This document shows positions 3,116 to 42,493 of a stretch of DNA of 49,046 nt, piece by piece. How positions within the stretch are numbered: position 1 is the first letter of the stretch; each line of letters begins with the position of its first letter. The translations under genes were made by a program, and so were the position numbers. Under the pieces are notes generated by a model that had not been told where the DNA came from, did not search any database, and saw only the letters and a program-made list of their open reading frames with translations. Origin of the DNA: a virus; IMG/VR virus record IMGVR_UViG_3300048908_000126, positions 1-49,046 of that record; one strand, 5' to 3'.

Positions 3116-4818
3116 TGCGCTATCTGTCCGTTTGCTCTGGAATTGAGGCCGCATCCGTCGCGCTCGACGGCATGGGCTGGCACCCGGTTGGATTCTCGGA
3201 ACTGGACCGCGCGGCTTCGCATGTGCTGGCGCATCGGTTCGGCTCAAATCTTCCCGGCGAGCCGCTTGCGACGAATGGCGTCCCGAACTTTGGCGACTTC
3301 ACGCAAATCGACCTGTCGCAGATCGGCCCGGTCGATGTGCTGATCGGCGGCACGCCCTGCCAAGCCTTTTCCATCGCTGGCAAGAGACTATCTCTTGCCG
3401 ACGCCCGCGGCAATCTCACTCTGGCTTATGTGGCCCTTGCTCATGAACTTGCTCGATCTCATGGATTGCGAAACGCCTGGTGGGAGAATGTCCCCGGCGT
3501 CCTCAATACTCCCGACAACGCCTTCGGCTGTTTCCTGGGAGCACTTGTCGGCGCAGATGATCCCCTGTGTACGCCAGACGGGGAAGGATGGCCCGACGCG
3601 GGTATGGTTGCCGGGCCACGGGCACGGGCGGCATGGCGGGTTCTCGATGCACAATATTTCGGACTGGCCCAACGCCGCAAGCGTGTGTTCGTTATCGTCG
3701 ATTTTGGAAATGGGGCCGATCCCGCAGCGGTATTATTTGAGCGCCAAGGCCTGCGCGGGAATTCTGCGCCGCGCCGAGAAAAGGGGCAAGGCGCTGCCGC
3801 CGCTGCTCAAGCAGGCGCTGGAATCGGTTTTGGGGGGGGCAACTGTAGCGGACCAATCGACCAAGCCGCCTGTCTGACGGCGAAGGGCCAGCGGCTTGAT
3901 TTCGAGGTCGAGACGTTTGTCGCCCAGCCCGTCGCCAATACGCTCGGCGCCAAGAAGGACGGCGGCTGGCGCGGCGATCTCGATAACGACACCTATGTTG
4001 CCCATTCCTTGCGCGGCGAAGGCTTCGACGCCAGCGAGGATGGCACGGGGCGCGGAACGCCGATTGTGCCGGTGCCTCTGGCGTTCTCCTGCAAGGACCA
4101 CGGCGCTGATGCGACCAACGATCTCGCGCCGACGCTCCGCAGCATGGGACACGCCGAAAGCCACGCCAATGCGGGCGGGCAGTTGGCCGTTGCTTGGGCG
4201 ATCCAAGCGGGCGCCCTTCGTGAAAACCCGGACAGCGGCCCCGATGGCGTCGGCGTCCAACAAGATCACGCCTACACGCTTGAGGCGCGGGCCGAAGTCC
4301 AAGCGGTGGCGTTTGCGCAGAACACCCGCGATGAGGTTCGCTTCCTGAACGGCGACGGTTCGATTGCGGGAGCTCTCGCCGCCGAGCCGGGCATGAAGCA
4401 GCAGACCTATGTGGCGTTCCAGACGCATGGATCAAACATCGAGCATAGCGGCGATGTTTCAGGAACGCTCCAAACGAACAGCGACCGCGCCTCTGGCTCG
4501 GCCCCGATGGTCGCCCAAGCCTTCGACCTTCGCGGACGCGAGGGCGGCGCCCAATTCGAGGGGCCGCACGACACGGCGAATATCCGGGCAGCAAGCGGCG
4601 GGTCGTCGCGGTCTTATGTCGCGCAGCAATGGGCAGTGCGCCGGCTGACGCCACGGGAATGCGAGCGCCTACAGGGATTTCAAGACGACTGGACGCTTGT
4701 GCCTGACGCCCGGGGGAAGCCCCAAGCAGATGGGCCGCGGTATAAGCAATTGGGGAATTCGATGGCTGTAAATTGCATGTCCTGGATCGGGCGCCGTCTT
4801 ACGGAGGCGATGCCATGA
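3112..4818 (+). CDS. dcm: DNA (cytosine-5-)-methyltransferase
   Basis: The 568-residue enzyme methylates cytosine C5 in DNA. Motif I SVCSGIEAA is at residues 6-14, the catalytic motif IV GGTPCQAFS at 79-87 with Cys83, motif VI ENV at 125-127, motif VIII QRRKRVF at 187-193, motif IX RRLTPRECERLQGF at 510-523 and motif X RYKQLGNS at 543-550. Between VIII and IX lies a very long region of about 315 residues, far longer than in compact Dcm enzymes; it should hold the target-recognition part. Tandem ATG codons at 3112 and 3115 both follow GAGAGG. In a phage it probably protects DNA from host restriction or regulates packaging or expression. Confidence 0.93.
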   Translation: MMRYLSVCSGIEAASVALDGMGWHPVGFSELDRAASHVLAHRFGSNLPGEPLATNGVPNFGDFTQIDLSQIGPVDVLIGGTPCQAFSIAGKRLSLADARGNLTLAYVALAHELARSHGLRNAWWENVPGVLNTPDNAFGCFLGALVGADDPLCTPDGEGWPDAGMVAGPRARAAWRVLDAQYFGLAQRRKRVFVIVDFGNGADPAAVLFERQGLRGNSAPRREKGQGAAAAAQAGAGIGFGGGNCSGPIDQAACLTAKGQRLDFEVETFVAQPVANTLGAKKDGGWRGDLDNDTYVAHSLRGEGFDASEDGTGRGTPIVPVPLAFSCKDHGADATNDLAPTLRSMGHAESHANAGGQLAVAWAIQAGALRENPDSGPDGVGVQQDHAYTLEARAEVQAVAFAQNTRDEVRFLNGDGSIAGALAAEPGMKQQTYVAFQTHGSNIEHSGDVSGTLQTNSDRASGSAPMVAQAFDLRGREGGAQFEGPHDTANIRAASGGSSRSYVAQQWAVRRLTPRECERLQGFQDDWTLVPDARGKPQADGPRYKQLGNSMAVNCMSWIGRRLTEAMP

Positions 4819-11264: not shown

Positions 11265-12425
11265 ATGACTGTCTCGAACACGCTTTCTTCCGTCATCCCG
11301 AGCCTGTTTGCGCAGGGCCTCAAGTCGCTGCGCCGCAACTCGGTCATGCCCTCGCTCGTCAACAATGACTACGGCACCGAAGTCAAGCAGAAGGGCGACA
11401 CCATCACCATCCCGGTCCCGTCCGCGATCGCCGCGACGGACGTTGTCCCGGCCGCCTATGCGCCGGATTCTGGCAACATCGCGCCGACCACCGCCACCAT
11501 CCCGCTGTCGAACTGGAAGGAAGCCCCCTTCACCCTGACGGAAAAGGAACTGGCGCAGGTCGTGGACGGCATCGTTCCGATTCAGCTTTCGTCCGCTGTC
11601 GAAAGCATCGCCGACGCCATCAACCAGTCGATCTTCACCCTTTATAAGGGCGTCTATGGCTATGTCGGCACCGCCGGCACCACGCCGTTCGGAACCCCCG
11701 GCATCGGCGACGCGACCTCCGTTCGCAAGGTGCTTGGCAAGCAGTTGGCGCCGCTCAATGAGCGCCGCATGGTCCTCGACCCCGACGCCGAGGCCGCCGC
11801 TCTCGGCCTGACCGCGTTCTCCTATTACCTCAATTCGGGTGATAAGGAAGTCATGAAGGAAGGCCAGATCGGCCGCAAGTTCGGCTTTGACTGGTTCATG
11901 GATCAGCGCGTTCCGACCCATACCGCCGGCACCATCACCACCGGCCTGATCGCCAAGGCTTCGACCGTCCAGGCCGCCGGCCTGACGTCGATTGTCTGCA
12001 CCACGGCGGCTTCGACCGGCGCTTGCGCGCTCAAGAAGGGCGACGTCATCCTGTTCGGTTCGGACACTCAGACCTATGTGCTGACCGCCGACGCGACCCA
12101 GGCTTCCGCCGCCACCGACGTCACCATCACCATCTCGCCCCCCAAGGTTGTCGCCCTGGCGGGTTCGGAAGCGGTCACGGTCAAGGCCGCCCATGTCGTC
12201 AACATGGGCTTCCACCGCGACGCCTTCGCCTTCGCCAGCCGCCCGATGACCCAGAACAACCTCACCATGAACAAGGACCAGTCCTTCATGGTGGCGGACC
12301 CGGTTTCGGGTATCACCATGCGCCTGTCGTATCGTGAAGAATTCCACCGCACCCGCCTGGCGTTCGATGTCCTTTGGGGCGTCGGCCTGATCCGCCCCGA
12401 ACTGGCCTGCCGCCTCGCCGGCTGA
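11265..12425 (+). CDS. Major capsid protein, P22 coat (gp5) type
   Basis: The 386-residue protein should build the icosahedral shell with an HK97-like fold. The N-terminal segment ends in IPSLFAQGLKSLRRNSVMPS. The C-terminal block has FHRDAFAFASRPM, DPVSGITMRLSYREEFHRT and FDVLWGVGLIRPELACRLAG, the pattern of P22-type coat proteins. It follows portal and scaffold and has GGAGA at good spacing before the ATG. Residues about 225-300 look like an inserted beta-rich domain, as is usual in this family. Confidence 0.9.
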   Translation: MTVSNTLSSVIPSLFAQGLKSLRRNSVMPSLVNNDYGTEVKQKGDTITIPVPSAIAATDVVPAAYAPDSGNIAPTTATIPLSNWKEAPFTLTEKELAQVVDGIVPIQLSSAVESIADAINQSIFTLYKGVYGYVGTAGTTPFGTPGIGDATSVRKVLGKQLAPLNERRMVLDPDAEAAALGLTAFSYYLNSGDKEVMKEGQIGRKFGFDWFMDQRVPTHTAGTITTGLIAKASTVQAAGLTSIVCTTAASTGACALKKGDVILFGSDTQTYVLTADATQASAATDVTITISPPKVVALAGSEAVTVKAAHVVNMGFHRDAFAFASRPMTQNNLTMNKDQSFMVADPVSGITMRLSYREEFHRTRLAFDVLWGVGLIRPELACRLAG

Positions 12426-12444
12426 TTTTGGTCAAGACAAGTTC

Positions 12445-12470
12445 TCCCGTCCGGGTTCGCCCGGGCGGGA
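12445..12470 (+). terminator. Very stable hairpin after the coat gene
   Basis: An 11-base arm (12445-12455) pairs with 12460-12470 around TTCG, with only one G-T pair. No T-tract follows (ATTACCAGG), so it is more likely an mRNA-stabilising or partial-termination element that raises coat expression over downstream genes. Confidence 0.5.
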
Positions 12471-12487
12471 ATTACCAGGGGCGGCTT

Positions 12488-12682
12488 ATGGCAATCTGCG
12501 AAACCGTCAAGATCGCCAGCGAACATTTCGCGGGCGGCTTTGTCATCATTAACGCCGACGAATTCGATCCGTCCGTTCACCAGTTGTTTGTCGAGGCGGC
12601 GCCAAAACCTGTTGCCCCGCCCGCCTATCGCGTCCGCGCTCCGAAATTGAAAGAGGCTGACGATGGCTCTTACAACGGCTGA
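12488..12682 (+). CDS. Small hypothetical structural-region protein (64 aa)
   Basis: ATG at 12488 follows GGGGCGG. The product MAICETVKIA... contains GGFVIINADEFDP, which resembles small proteins after coat genes that have an 'INxxDF/EFDP' pattern, and a Pro-rich part. It overlaps the next gene by 20 bases. Role unknown; possibly a head-completion accessory. Confidence 0.6.
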   Translation: MAICETVKIASEHFAGGFVIINADEFDPSVHQLFVEAAPKPVAPPAYRVRAPKLKEADDGSYNG

Positions 12683-13028
12683 GCGCGTCGATATCCGCAG
12701 GTTCTGCGGGTTCCCGGCGTATGCTCACTTCGGATGGGTGTTTGAGGCCGAATACGCCACGCTCGAATTGCGCATGGACAATTTCGCCGACGAAGAACTC
12801 GCCGTGATCCGCATCAATCACCTGCCGGACCTCTACACGCTCGAAAGCGCGATTGTGACGGCGTCCAGCAATCTCGATACCGACGCGGCGAGCGTTTGGA
12901 CCCATAACAAGAACGAAGTGGCTGACAGGTTCGGCCTCTACAACCGCAAGCGCCGCGAGTTGTGCGCCTTTATCGGCGTCAGGCCCGGGCGCGGCCTTGG
13001 CTCATCGTCCAGCGTCGTGCGCTGCTAA
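12663..13028 (+). CDS. Head-tail connector or head-completion protein (probable)
   Basis: The 121-residue product MALTTAERVDIRRFCGFPAY has a helical bundle look, with FADEELAVIRINHL and LPDLYTLESAI. Position after the coat gene and size fit an adaptor that binds the portal. Family assignment is by position and general pattern only. It converges with the minus-strand gene at 13025 and overlaps it by four bases. Confidence 0.6.
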   Translation: MALTTAERVDIRRFCGFPAYAHFGWVFEAEYATLELRMDNFADEELAVIRINHLPDLYTLESAIVTASSNLDTDAASVWTHNKNEVADRFGLYNRKRRELCAFIGVRPGRGLGSSSSVVRC

Positions 13029-13480
13029 TCCTTCGCTTTCAACAGCCGCTCAAGTTCTTCGATCTTTTCATGGGCTTTTTTGAGATCAGCGACTGGATCT
13101 CCACTAGGCATTTCGCGGCCAATCTCGGCGAATAGTTCTCTGATTGATGTCAGCCCGAAGTTTGGGGTTTTAATCAAATCATCGAACGGCGTCCTTCTCG
13201 CATCTCCTATGGTTTTGATGCCGCCGATGTTCATGGCGTTCTCGCACCTGACTGAAAGCGAGAGAGCGGAAATCGGAGTGTCATCGGTTCTTTCTTTGGG
13301 CGGAATTTTGCCGACGCCAGAGTCGTAGGCTTGTTGGCGGGATCGTTCCGCCTCCGCGATTTTGATGTTCCGATGGTACGCCGCGCGCCCAATTCCGAGC
13401 GCTTCGCATATCTCTTTCGCGCCTTTCCCTTGGGCTTTCATGTCGAAGGCTTCATCGCGGCGTGCTTTCCAGTCAGTCAT
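13025..13480 (-). CDS. HTH protein with an RNA polymerase alpha-CTD-like domain
   Basis: The 151-residue protein is encoded against the late operon. Residues 11-42 form an HTH (MKAQGKGAKEICEALGIGRA). Residues 69-123 match the C-terminal domain of the RNA polymerase alpha subunit: LSLSVRCEN, then IKTIGDA, then KTPNFGLTSIRE. Arg78, Asn81, Asn107, Gly109, Ser112 and Glu115 align with E. coli R265, N268, N294, G296, S299 and E302 with identical spacing; the K298 equivalent is Thr. A short coiled coil ends the protein. It may bind UP-element-like DNA or contact polymerase partners. The start has GGTGAGG upstream. Confidence 0.85.
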   Translation of the reverse strand: MTDWKARRDEAFDMKAQGKGAKEICEALGIGRAAYHRNIKIAEAERSRQQAYDSGVGKIPPKERTDDTPISALSLSVRCENAMNIGGIKTIGDARRTPFDDLIKTPNFGLTSIRELFAEIGREMPSGDPVADLKKAHEKIEELERLLKAKD

Positions 13481-13538
13481 AGCGCCTCACCAAAAATAGA
13501 AACATTCACGTTTTTACTGCGACGGCGGGACAATGTAA

Positions 13539-14195
13539 ATGGACGGCGTCACGCTCCAAGCCAAGGTTTACGCGGGCTATGCGAAGGCCGCGCAGCGCAT
13601 CGGCCTGCCCTATGACATATATCGTCCGACCAGCTTTGTTGAACCGCTTGGCGGCATGAAAATCGCGACGATCCCCGCGGCGTTCACCCAGCACGGCGCC
13701 GGCAATTTCGATTTCTCCAAGCCGTCCGATTACGCCAAGCCATTGTTTCACGCCCTGCTCGACGGGACGCAGGTGCAGGTTGGTGATTATCTCGTCAGCG
13801 AAAACAACCCGCAAGGGCCGTTTTTCATCGCGGCGAAGGATGCGGGCGTTCCTATTCTCGCGGTGCAATGCAATCGCACCATTACCGCATTCAATCCCGG
13901 CCCTGAACTCAGCATCGGCGCGAATGTCTATAGCGGCACGACATTGGCAAACGAAGCCGTAATCATGCTCGATTGGCCGGCAAGCGTGCTGCTCGGCTCG
14001 CGTGGCGTGCGTGACCAGCAATTGCCGGAAGATGCTGGCTACGGCTCCTGGCGCATATTGATGCCAGCGTGGCCCGGCGTGGTTATCCGCCCCGGCACGA
14101 TCCTAAATGACGATGTAGGCAACCGTATGATTGTCGTCTCGGCGGAATTGCAAGACCTCGGCTGGCGCATCGACGCGACGCAGGCGGTGACGTAA
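13539..14195 (+). CDS. Hypothetical virion or neck protein (218 aa)
   Basis: The beta-rich product MDGVTLQAKVYAGYAKAAQR contains GPFFIAAKDAGVPILAVQCN and ends DLGWRIDATQAVT. It resembles alphaproteobacterial and betaproteobacterial phage structural proteins between head and tail genes, but the exact role is unknown. Its TAA overlaps the next ATG (TAATG), giving coupling. It resumes the late operon after the minus-strand guest gene. Confidence 0.6.
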   Translation: MDGVTLQAKVYAGYAKAAQRIGLPYDIYRPTSFVEPLGGMKIATIPAAFTQHGAGNFDFSKPSDYAKPLFHALLDGTQVQVGDYLVSENNPQGPFFIAAKDAGVPILAVQCNRTITAFNPGPELSIGANVYSGTTLANEAVIMLDWPASVLLGSRGVRDQQLPEDAGYGSWRILMPAWPGVVIRPGTILNDDVGNRMIVVSAELQDLGWRIDATQAVT

Positions 14196-18235: not shown

Positions 18236-18850
18236 ATGGCTAAAGATACTGATACCACGCCGACATATGCCAAGCCAATCCGCTCTCGCTCTGGCTCGTA
18301 TAAAGTGAACCAGATGCCTGCACTTAGCAGGCTTTATCAGATATTTGATCTGAACCCGGTTTCTGGCGAACTCAGATGGATGAGGCGTGACCCTTCCGAA
18401 TTTGGCGCTACAGCGAAACGTACCAGTTCGGAATTGTGCGCCGCGTGGAACGATAAGTTCGCAGTGAAATCGGCGGGTTATGCCTGTCGTGGCGGATACA
18501 AGACGGTAAAAATCGACGGGCTATACTATCAAGCCCACCGCATCGTCTATGTGATGTTCTACCAAGAACATCTTGGGGATTCTCAGGTAGATCATATCGA
18601 CGGGGACAGGGCGAATAACAGCCCCCGTAATCTGCGCCGCGCAACGTTTGCCGAGAATGCCCAAAATCGCGGCGTCCGCAATAGTTTCGGCCTAAAGGGC
18701 GTCAAGCCCAAGAGAGGGAAATTCCAAGCCAGAATTAAGATTTCTGGTAAGGAAACTCACCTTGGGACATTCGAAACGGCGGAATTGGCACATGCGGCTT
18801 ACCAAAAAGCTGCGGTAGCCGCCTACGGGGAATTTGCGCGGTTCGAATGA
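18236..18850 (+). CDS. HNH endonuclease with AP2 domain (homing type)
   Basis: The 204-residue protein has an HNH core (His101 of QAHRIV, DHIDGDRANN at 119-128, NLRRAT at 132-137) followed by an AP2 DNA-binding domain at about 153-204 (FGLKGVKPKRGKFQARIKI, HLGTFETAELAHAAYQKA). Such free-standing homing nucleases cut phage DNA lacking them and spread by repair. It splits the tube and chaperone genes and brings its own leader. A related gene is at 41428-42069. Confidence 0.92.
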   Translation: MAKDTDTTPTYAKPIRSRSGSYKVNQMPALSRLYQIFDLNPVSGELRWMRRDPSEFGATAKRTSSELCAAWNDKFAVKSAGYACRGGYKTVKIDGLYYQAHRIVYVMFYQEHLGDSQVDHIDGDRANNSPRNLRRATFAENAQNRGVRNSFGLKGVKPKRGKFQARIKISGKETHLGTFETAELAHAAYQKAAVAAYGEFARFE

Positions 18851-40924: not shown

Positions 40925-41441
40925 GTCCCGCGTCCTCCGCAAGAGCGGCCTTGGCGCGACAGAAACTTGAACAGAGCGCCAGGGCGGCCATGTGCTTCCC
41001 CCGCCCGTCCAGCGACGTGCAAAATCCTTCATCGAACTCGGCCGCACCTTCAATCTCCGGCAAGCCCTTCGCCTGCGGGTCGTTGTAATCCGGCGCCAAG
41101 ATGGCGTGGGTTTTCAGCCGCCTCGGATTGAGCGCGCCGACATCGCCGTCGCCGGTCAGGTGGCAGGAGCCGCAGGACCACCACCACCCCGGCAACTCCC
41201 GCTCGATCATGGCGACAATGGCGTCGAGGCTTTCAGTGATAAGCCAGCCCTCGCGCCGATGCGGCATCCGCGCAAGCCTGTTAGGCGCATCATAGACACA
41301 CCACGCGCCATTGATCCGCGATTGCTCGACAAACCCGCCAGGCGCGAAAGTCGCCTGCATGATTTCGGCGGCGAGGCGTTCATCCGGCCCCGTCGCGGCT
41401 TCGCACCTTGCGGCTAAAATTTGCCATTCACTTCGCGTCAT
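40917..41441 (-). CDS. Hypothetical early protein (174 aa)
   Basis: ATG at 41441 gives MTRSEWQILAARCEAATGPD then ERLAAEIMQATF, a pattern common in phage early proteins that begin with a 'cEaATGPDxxLxxxI' segment. GWLITESLDAIVAMIERELP and WWWSCGSCHLTGDG follow. Function is unknown. It overlaps the HNH-AP2 gene by 14 bases and the excisionase-like gene by 8. Confidence 0.65.
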   Translation of the reverse strand: MTRSEWQILAARCEAATGPDERLAAEIMQATFAPGGFVEQSRINGAWCVYDAPNRLARMPHRREGWLITESLDAIVAMIERELPGWWWSCGSCHLTGDGDVGALNPRRLKTHAILAPDYNDPQAKGLPEIEGAAEFDEGFCTSLDGRGKHMAALALCSSFCRAKAALAEDAGHE

Positions 41442-42069
41442 CGCGCGCTCCCTTCTCAATCTCGGCAATGGCTTCGTTATCTTGACGTGCAAACTCACCC
41501 CAATATTTGATAGACGCCACCTCGTAAGCCTTTGCCGCATCGTCTTTATTGTTGAACATCCCTAAATGGACATGCTTGCCATTCACGCCTATCTTTGCGA
41601 TCCATTTATTAGTTTGCTTATGCCAGTGCACGCCCTTGACGCCTGATTTGTTTGCTTTGTTCGCACTCATATTCGCATTGTTCTGCGCGAATGTTGCGGG
41701 GCGCAAATTCTTAGGGTCATTATTCGATTTGTTCATGTCGATATGGTCTATGCTCGCAGGCTCCCACCCATAGAAGATCAGAAATACGATGCGGTGCGCC
41801 ATATACTTGCTATTCTCAATAGCGATATGGAAATAGCCGATTGGGTTGCAATGCCCGGCCTGGTCGCCTGCATGAGCCGCGTTCCATGAATTCCGGCTCC
41901 TAGCATCCTTGAAATGATGCAGTGGACGTTCGCGCCAAAAAAGCCGGCCGTCTTCACGCAAGTCGAAACACTCGATCAGGTAGTCTCGATGCGGGAGCAT
42001 CTTCCGAAACTTTCGGCCGTCTGAGCTAATTCTCCACGAAACGGAATTTACGTGCAAAGTCTCACTCAT
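41428..42069 (-). CDS. HNH endonuclease with AP2 domain, second copy
   Basis: The 213-residue protein has SKYMAHRIVFLIFYGW, DHIDMNKSNN (108-117) and NLRPAT of the HNH core, then an AP2 domain at about 142-194 (KSGVKGVHWHKQTNKWIAKI, KHVHLGMFNNKDDAAKAYE). It is related to, but clearly diverged from, the 18236 gene. A free-standing homing nuclease is likely, here inserted in the leftward operon. Confidence 0.9.
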   Translation of the reverse strand: MSETLHVNSVSWRISSDGRKFRKMLPHRDYLIECFDLREDGRLFWRERPLHHFKDARSRNSWNAAHAGDQAGHCNPIGYFHIAIENSKYMAHRIVFLIFYGWEPASIDHIDMNKSNNDPKNLRPATFAQNNANMSANKANKSGVKGVHWHKQTNKWIAKIGVNGKHVHLGMFNNKDDAAKAYEVASIKYWGEFARQDNEAIAEIEKGARDDAK

Positions 42070-42493
42070 CGCTCGCGCCTTCCTTTTTGATGCGGGCGCG
42101 AATGCGCGAAGCGATAGACGCCGAGGCCCCACACTTGTCTGTGTGGCTTGAGCCTAACGGCGTCCCTTTGCGAGTACTCGCGCTTCTCGCGTATGACTTG
42201 GCGCGGTCCTCCGCCACCTTCGCGCATTCCTCGTTCTCATCCCGGCGCCCGCGCTCGTAGGCGTCGGCTACCATCGTATCGGTAGGGTCCATTTCAGAGT
42301 AAAGTGCTTCGGCTTGTTCCCGCGTCATTTCAGGATGCGAGAGCATAGTCTCTCCGATAACCCACGATTTACGTTGGGCGTGGCGAAGCTCAGCCTGTCG
42401 TTCCTTTGGCAGGGCGTCGAAAGCTTTGATAGATTGCCGAACGAGGTCCATTAAAGCCGATCTGTCCGGAGATGGTGGTAGGCGCTCGCTCAC
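42062..42493 (-). CDS. Hypothetical helical protein (143 aa)
   Basis: GTG at 42493 overlaps the previous stop (GTGA) and has GGAGAGAA upstream. The product has MDLVRQSIKAFDALPKERQA, PEMTREQAEALYSEM and a C-terminus rich in Ser/Arg/Ala (SKYARSAS-like, ASIASRIRARIKKEG). No family is recognised. Confidence 0.55.
   Translation of the reverse strand: MSERLPPSPDRSALMDLVRQSIKAFDALPKERQAELRHAQRKSWVIGETMLSHPEMTREQAEALYSEMDPTDTMVADAYERGRRDENEECAKVAEDRAKSYARSASTRKGTPLGSSHTDKCGASASIASRIRARIKKEGASDE

Follow-up and report, generated by a model that had tools for sequence, protein, structure and literature searches.

An RNA polymerase alpha-CTD homologue joined to a predicted HTH, encoded on the opposite strand by an insert in a phage late operon

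A minus-strand gene (13025..13480) in the 49,046-nucleotide virus record IMGVR_UViG_3300048908_000126, the whole of which we call the window, encodes a protein of 151 residues that, judging by profile match and modelled fold alike, almost certainly carries a genuine C-terminal domain of the bacterial RNA polymerase alpha subunit (alpha-CTD), preceded by a predicted HTH and followed by a C-terminal helix. The phage domain is a homologue of the alpha-CTD, for which "mimic", the term used in the first-pass annotation, is a misnomer. On balance, we lean towards reading this HTH-alphaCTD protein as a two-handed DNA-binding regulator that would act at UP-like, A/T-rich promoter DNA and whose gene would be a moron-like element of a temperate myovirus.

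The coordinates and strand of the gene are as first annotated, its own TAG stop overlapping the TAA stop of the opposite-strand gene g121. An alpha-CTD had been proposed as its central domain, with a profile search and a structure prediction named as checks, and both bear the proposal out. Residues 62-116 (13133..13297, minus strand) match Pfam RNA_pol_A_CTD (PF03118) at 43.6 bits (E 2.4e-11), the curated gathering cut-off being 23.8 bits, and this is the single alpha-CTD in the 49-kb record. The RpoA models of NCBIfam match the same stretch weakly; the RpoA equivalog TIGR02027 scores 33.1 against a cut-off of 227.8, and the protein is without the alpha-NTD. In a phmmer search of the PDB, all matches with E <= 0.14 were RNA polymerase alpha chains. 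The AlphaFold model has a pLDDT of 85, rising to about 90 in the alpha-CTD part, where helices span residues 77-85, 91-96, 99-103 and 110-120; its pTM is low (0.51), so that the model does not tell how the parts are arranged with respect to one another. The alpha-CTD helix-hairpin-helix fold was recovered, and the top Foldseek ranks are solved alpha-CTDs, such as 7vpd_S (TM 0.90 by target, 0.8 A rmsd over 54 columns, E 1.5e-3).

Aligned with the alpha-CTD of E. coli, from which the functional roles of the contact residues are known and whose numbering is used here, the phage domain runs without a gap through the contact region, and the equivalents of Arg265 (R78 in the phage protein), Asn268, Asn294, Gly296, Ser299 and Glu302 are all present with identical spacing, as had been claimed. 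These six had been presented as the UP-element-contact set, and they are listed correctly, but the list omits Cys269, which is Ala in the phage protein, and Lys298, which is Thr; six of the eight contact residues scored (265, 268, 269, 294, 296, 298, 299 and 302) are thus retained. The published alanine-scan set comprises 265, 268, 269, 296, 298, 299 and 302. Identity to E. coli amounts to 6/8 at the contact positions versus 12/47 elsewhere (Fisher one-sided p = 0.011). In the same alignment, Ala and Ser stand in place of Asp259 and Glu261, which contact sigma, and the activator patches have diverged, Lys271/Glu273 to Asn/Gly and Thr285/Glu286/Val287 to Pro/Phe/Asp. As judged from this alignment, the DNA face is better preserved than the sigma and activator patches.

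This pattern bears on how such a protein could act. Capture of alpha-CTD partners, suggested in the first-pass annotation, loses ground because neither the sigma patch nor the activator patches are retained. We likewise regard as unlikely the more general proposal that the protein acts directly on polymerase or activators, its alpha-CTD either drawing off sigma or activators of the host as a decoy or tethering HTH-bound DNA to transcription factors as a bridge: the substitutions at 259/261, 271/273 and 285-287 and the better-kept DNA face argue against it, even though the alpha-CTD is commonly targeted by activators, phages have fusions of sigma region 4 to the alpha-CTD, and the alpha-CTD gene of Bacillus phage Goe8 lies at the genome end, where SPO1-like phages keep their host-takeover genes, and may itself have a takeover role.

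An HTH and a coiled coil had also been described as attached to the domain. The AlphaFold model does contain a tri-helical HTH with a long third helix at residues 4-53 (13322..13471, minus strand; helices 4-16, 21-28 and 32-53) and a C-terminal helix at residues 129-150 (13031..13096, minus strand), which from its sequence might form a dimerising coiled coil, but the Pfam HTH scores of the N-terminal part stay under cut-off (HTH_23, 15.6 bits). Modelled alone, this part is again a tri-helical HTH, nearest to those of DesR/GerE/NarL, resolvases, DeoR and sigma factors, with Foldseek E > 0.3. Pfam returned no Sigma70_r4 match in the protein, its likeness to sigma HTHs being structural only (E 0.7).

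Single-protein scans of viral_contigs, genome_contigs and INPHARED yielded no full-length relative. The INPHARED matches were rejected as relatives, as they look like RpoA genes, some apparently from bacterial contamination; MT835508.1 (L007) contains rpsD-, rpoA- and rplQ-like frames and OR851339.1 (L008) a bacterial rpoA, apparently host contamination. Plasmid matches, consisting of short alpha-CTD frames and one alphaCTD-sigma4 protein, were also set aside, as the architecture differs in all of them. On the Bradyrhizobium plasmids L093, L094 and L095, a conserved alpha-CTD frame is left unannotated, and the short "hypothetical protein" annotated on the opposite strand is probably a misannotation.

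Scans of viral contigs seeded with alpha-CTD alignments gathered 55 distinct alpha-CTD domains, the window's included, in non-RpoA phage frames of ~100-325 aa. The Pfam cut-off was passed by 20/20 sampled records, and 8/10 sampled loci had phage protein family matches among their neighbours, mostly to replication/recombination genes. Among the partners of the domain across the set are region 4 of sigma-70, other HTHs and coiled coils. Strong Sigma70_r4 matches precede an alpha-CTD in one chain in L080:2332-3222, L088:2500-3213, L163:3518-4186 and L085:2254-3204, and some of these proteins begin with a further HTH of Cro/C1 or MerR-like type. A coiled coil, recognised by eye, is joined to the alpha-CTD in L074, L075 and L131; the alpha-CTD comes first in L112 and L154, with a helical or other tail, and in L161, with a possible C-terminal HTH that scores under cut-off; and the order HTH then alpha-CTD is found in the window protein and in L150. 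The phage L150 has two different alpha-CTD genes one after the other (3215-4234, HTH-alphaCTD first), and L104 has two alpha-CTD frames on opposite strands. In larger alphaproteobacterial proteins, L092:1976-3289 on an Aurantiacibacter plasmid and L099:2649-4460, a sigma region 4-like HTH comes after the alpha-CTD, a domain order opposite to that of the phage Sigma70_r4-alphaCTD fusions.

Residue conservation at positions within a search pattern (Arg265/Asn268 or Asn294/Gly296) was counted only in rows that do not match the pattern concerned. In these rows Arg265 is kept in 41/42, Asn268 in 32/42, Asn294 in 11/13 and Gly296 in 12/13; at positions outside the patterns, Ser299 is kept in 45 of the 55 domains, Glu302 in 47 and Lys298 in 33. 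An acidic residue occurs at 259 in 39 and at 261 in 30 of the 51 rows with a residue there. The DNA face is thus the best-kept part of the domain, in the window protein and in the phage set. Alphaproteobacteria have a match in 136/142 genomes, nearly all RpoA-sized, with a second, non-RpoA frame in just four, so a free alpha-CTD module is no common chromosomal gene in this class. In a FastTree phylogeny of the ~55-residue domain, which is too short for its branching to be trusted, RpoA and phage copies interleave, and the window copy groups with the plasmid alphaCTD-sigma4 protein, L104, L079 and L103 (support only 0.81-0.87). The interleaving hints at several captures, and a direct host rpoA origin of the window copy is neither supported nor excluded.

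The neighbourhoods of the phage set bear on a further possibility, namely that the alpha-CTD is a mere general helix-hairpin-helix grip on DNA, an accessory to DNA maintenance, packaging or recombination with no promoter role. Most checked phage alpha-CTD genes adjoin RecE, SSB, exonuclease, helicase or polymerase genes, the window HTH also resembles resolvase HTHs, and terminase small subunits are among the weak viral structure matches. However, transcription modules (Sigma70_r4, Cro/C1 HTH, MerR-like HTH) account for many of the partners in the family, and the window protein retains most alpha-CTD contact residues, whereas the helix-hairpin-helix of repair proteins is usually sequence-unspecific. 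We consider such a role improbable.

The genomic setting is that of an insert between late genes. The gene is antisense within the late operon, as first described: terminase, portal, scaffold, major head, g121, g218, sheath and tape measure genes all lie on the plus strand around it. An inserted segment of 510 nt (13029..13538) separates g121 (12663..13028, plus strand; phrog_14539) from g218 (13539..14195, plus strand; phrog_14605), where the gap in the related records L002, L003, L004, L005 and L009 is -1 to +3 nt. GC content is 52% in the insert versus 63% in its flanks, and third-position GC is 0.58 in the HTH-alphaCTD gene versus 0.72-0.85 in its neighbours. None of ten related virus records, several of them fragments, has an alpha-CTD domain. 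The late-operon site is as described, but the setting departs from the one first assumed: the insert is absent from relatives, and most of the other phage alpha-CTD genes checked lie near replication or recombination genes. Over 11265-14195, g218 is 95% identical in L002 and 82% in L003, g121 46% and 41%, and the L003 major head protein 28%; with g218 at 95% but g121 at 46% in L002, the insert coincides exactly with a sharp mosaic boundary, and L002 does not represent a simple empty allele. No shared repeat of >5 nt was found at the insert ends. The sheath match identifies the phage as a myovirus, and the integrase, HTH-M78 and ERF genes in the record point to a temperate one. An extra gene of odd composition between genes that are adjacent in relatives is characteristic of a moron, and the gene, missing from the ten relatives, is accordingly moron-like, acquired by a temperate phage. 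Two HNH endonuclease genes elsewhere in the record, one among tail genes (18236-18850, plus strand) and another close to the integrase that includes an AP2 domain (41428-42132, minus strand), are possible homing elements.

Expression signals are sparse. A ribosome-binding-site-like GGTGAGG precedes the ATG (13485..13491, minus strand), and a weak promoter-like TTTACA-17-TAAAAA, identified by eye, might lie further upstream (13511..13539, minus strand; 9/12, the -10 without its final T), although this assignment is speculative. Morons have a promoter and a terminator of their own; a promoter scan around this gene gave nothing above threshold, and terminator-like sites there were no more than expected by chance. 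That the gene is a decaying or neutral passenger, inserted and unexpressed, is hardly credible, for although it is a singleton with an empty promoter scan and two changed contact residues, its frame is intact, a ribosome-binding-like site is present and its alpha-CTD is modelled at a pLDDT of about 90.

The promoter-binding regulator that we favour would be a 17-kDa transcription regulator encoded by an accessory, moron-like gene. The helix-hairpin-helix face of its alpha-CTD, with the six retained contact residues, would insert into UP-like, A/T-rich DNA from the minor-groove side, while the HTH might read adjacent DNA, adding specificity, and the C-terminal helix might pair two chains. Once bound to a promoter, the protein would contend with the host alpha-CTD for UP elements or take its place there. 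Transcription from some promoters, possibly including that of its own gene and those of prophage or host genes, would thereby be lowered or reset. We infer this from the PF03118 match, the fold at 0.8 A, the kept contact face and the lost sigma-contact residues, together with the HTH-alphaCTD order in L150, the phage fusions to Sigma70_r4 as a promoter-binding module, and the clean, low-GC, opposite-strand insertion in a phage with integrase and HTH-M78 genes. Against it stand the changes of Lys298 to Thr and Cys269 to Ala, the lack of a significant family match for the HTH, the empty promoter scan and the absence of full-length relatives from the three collections scanned; given the residues that remain, binding of UP-like DNA despite the missing Lys298 is plausible.

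Much of bacterial promoter control runs through UP elements and the alpha-CTD, a domain that phages are known to target, as T4 does by modifying Arg265. A phage alpha-CTD with most of the DNA face but no sigma face would compete for the DNA site, not modify the polymerase, and the 55 distinct domains in several architectures make such competition directly testable. The window protein is one case of a broader tendency of phages to join an alpha-CTD to diverse small proteins. Here we speculate further, and only tentatively, that phages might repeatedly capture the host alpha-CTD and fuse it to an HTH or to sigma region 4, giving single-chain proteins that occupy the UP element together with adjacent promoter DNA and redirect the RNA polymerase of the host, of which the window protein would be a prophage-expressed HTH-alphaCTD example. 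The literature searched, with most subscription journals outside its scope, yielded no paper on fusions of the alpha-CTD in phages, on the Sigma70_r4-alphaCTD proteins or on phage alpha-CTD proteins as a family.

Among known systems, the bacterial RpoA C-terminal domain (PF03118) shares its fold and six of eight DNA-contact residues with the window protein, which differs from RpoA in having no alpha-NTD, the part used for dimerisation and beta/beta' binding, in its added HTH and C-terminal helix and in its diverged sigma and activator patches. An alpha-CTD-like domain on a non-polymerase protein has also been described in the BREX kinase PglW (PMC12839542, 2026); PglW, however, is a large defence kinase, and the window protein matches its NCBIfam model weakly (E 0.077). 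The fusions L080, L088, L163 and L085 likewise combine an HTH-type module and an alpha-CTD in one chain, but theirs is a recognisable Sigma70_r4. Closest in architecture is L150:3215-3670 (IMGVR_UViG_3300043409_000379; PF03118 59.5 bits), which has the order and size of the window protein, is co-linear with it in BLASTP (23% identity, E 4e-6 in one comparison) and has an HTH that leans to Sigma70_r4 and Mor, both under cut-off; unlike the window gene, it is followed directly by another alpha-CTD gene in the same orientation. BFVD, with its UniProt-derived names, labels proteins of uncultured Caudovirales phages and of Mycobacterium phage Mithril "RNA polymerase, alpha subunit, C-terminal", and these, together with Goe8 c00050 and Microbacterium phage Mazun gp26, are small phage alpha-CTD carriers like the window protein, with unlike N-terminal parts. 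The Goe8 gene (L166:1959-2591) belongs to a row of small genes almost at the end of its Bastillevirinae genome. Both it and the Mazun gene point in the same direction as the genes around them, whereas the window gene is an antisense insert in a late operon. Phage alpha-CTD proteins have therefore already been annotated by name, and the HTH-alphaCTD form reported here is a variant of them.
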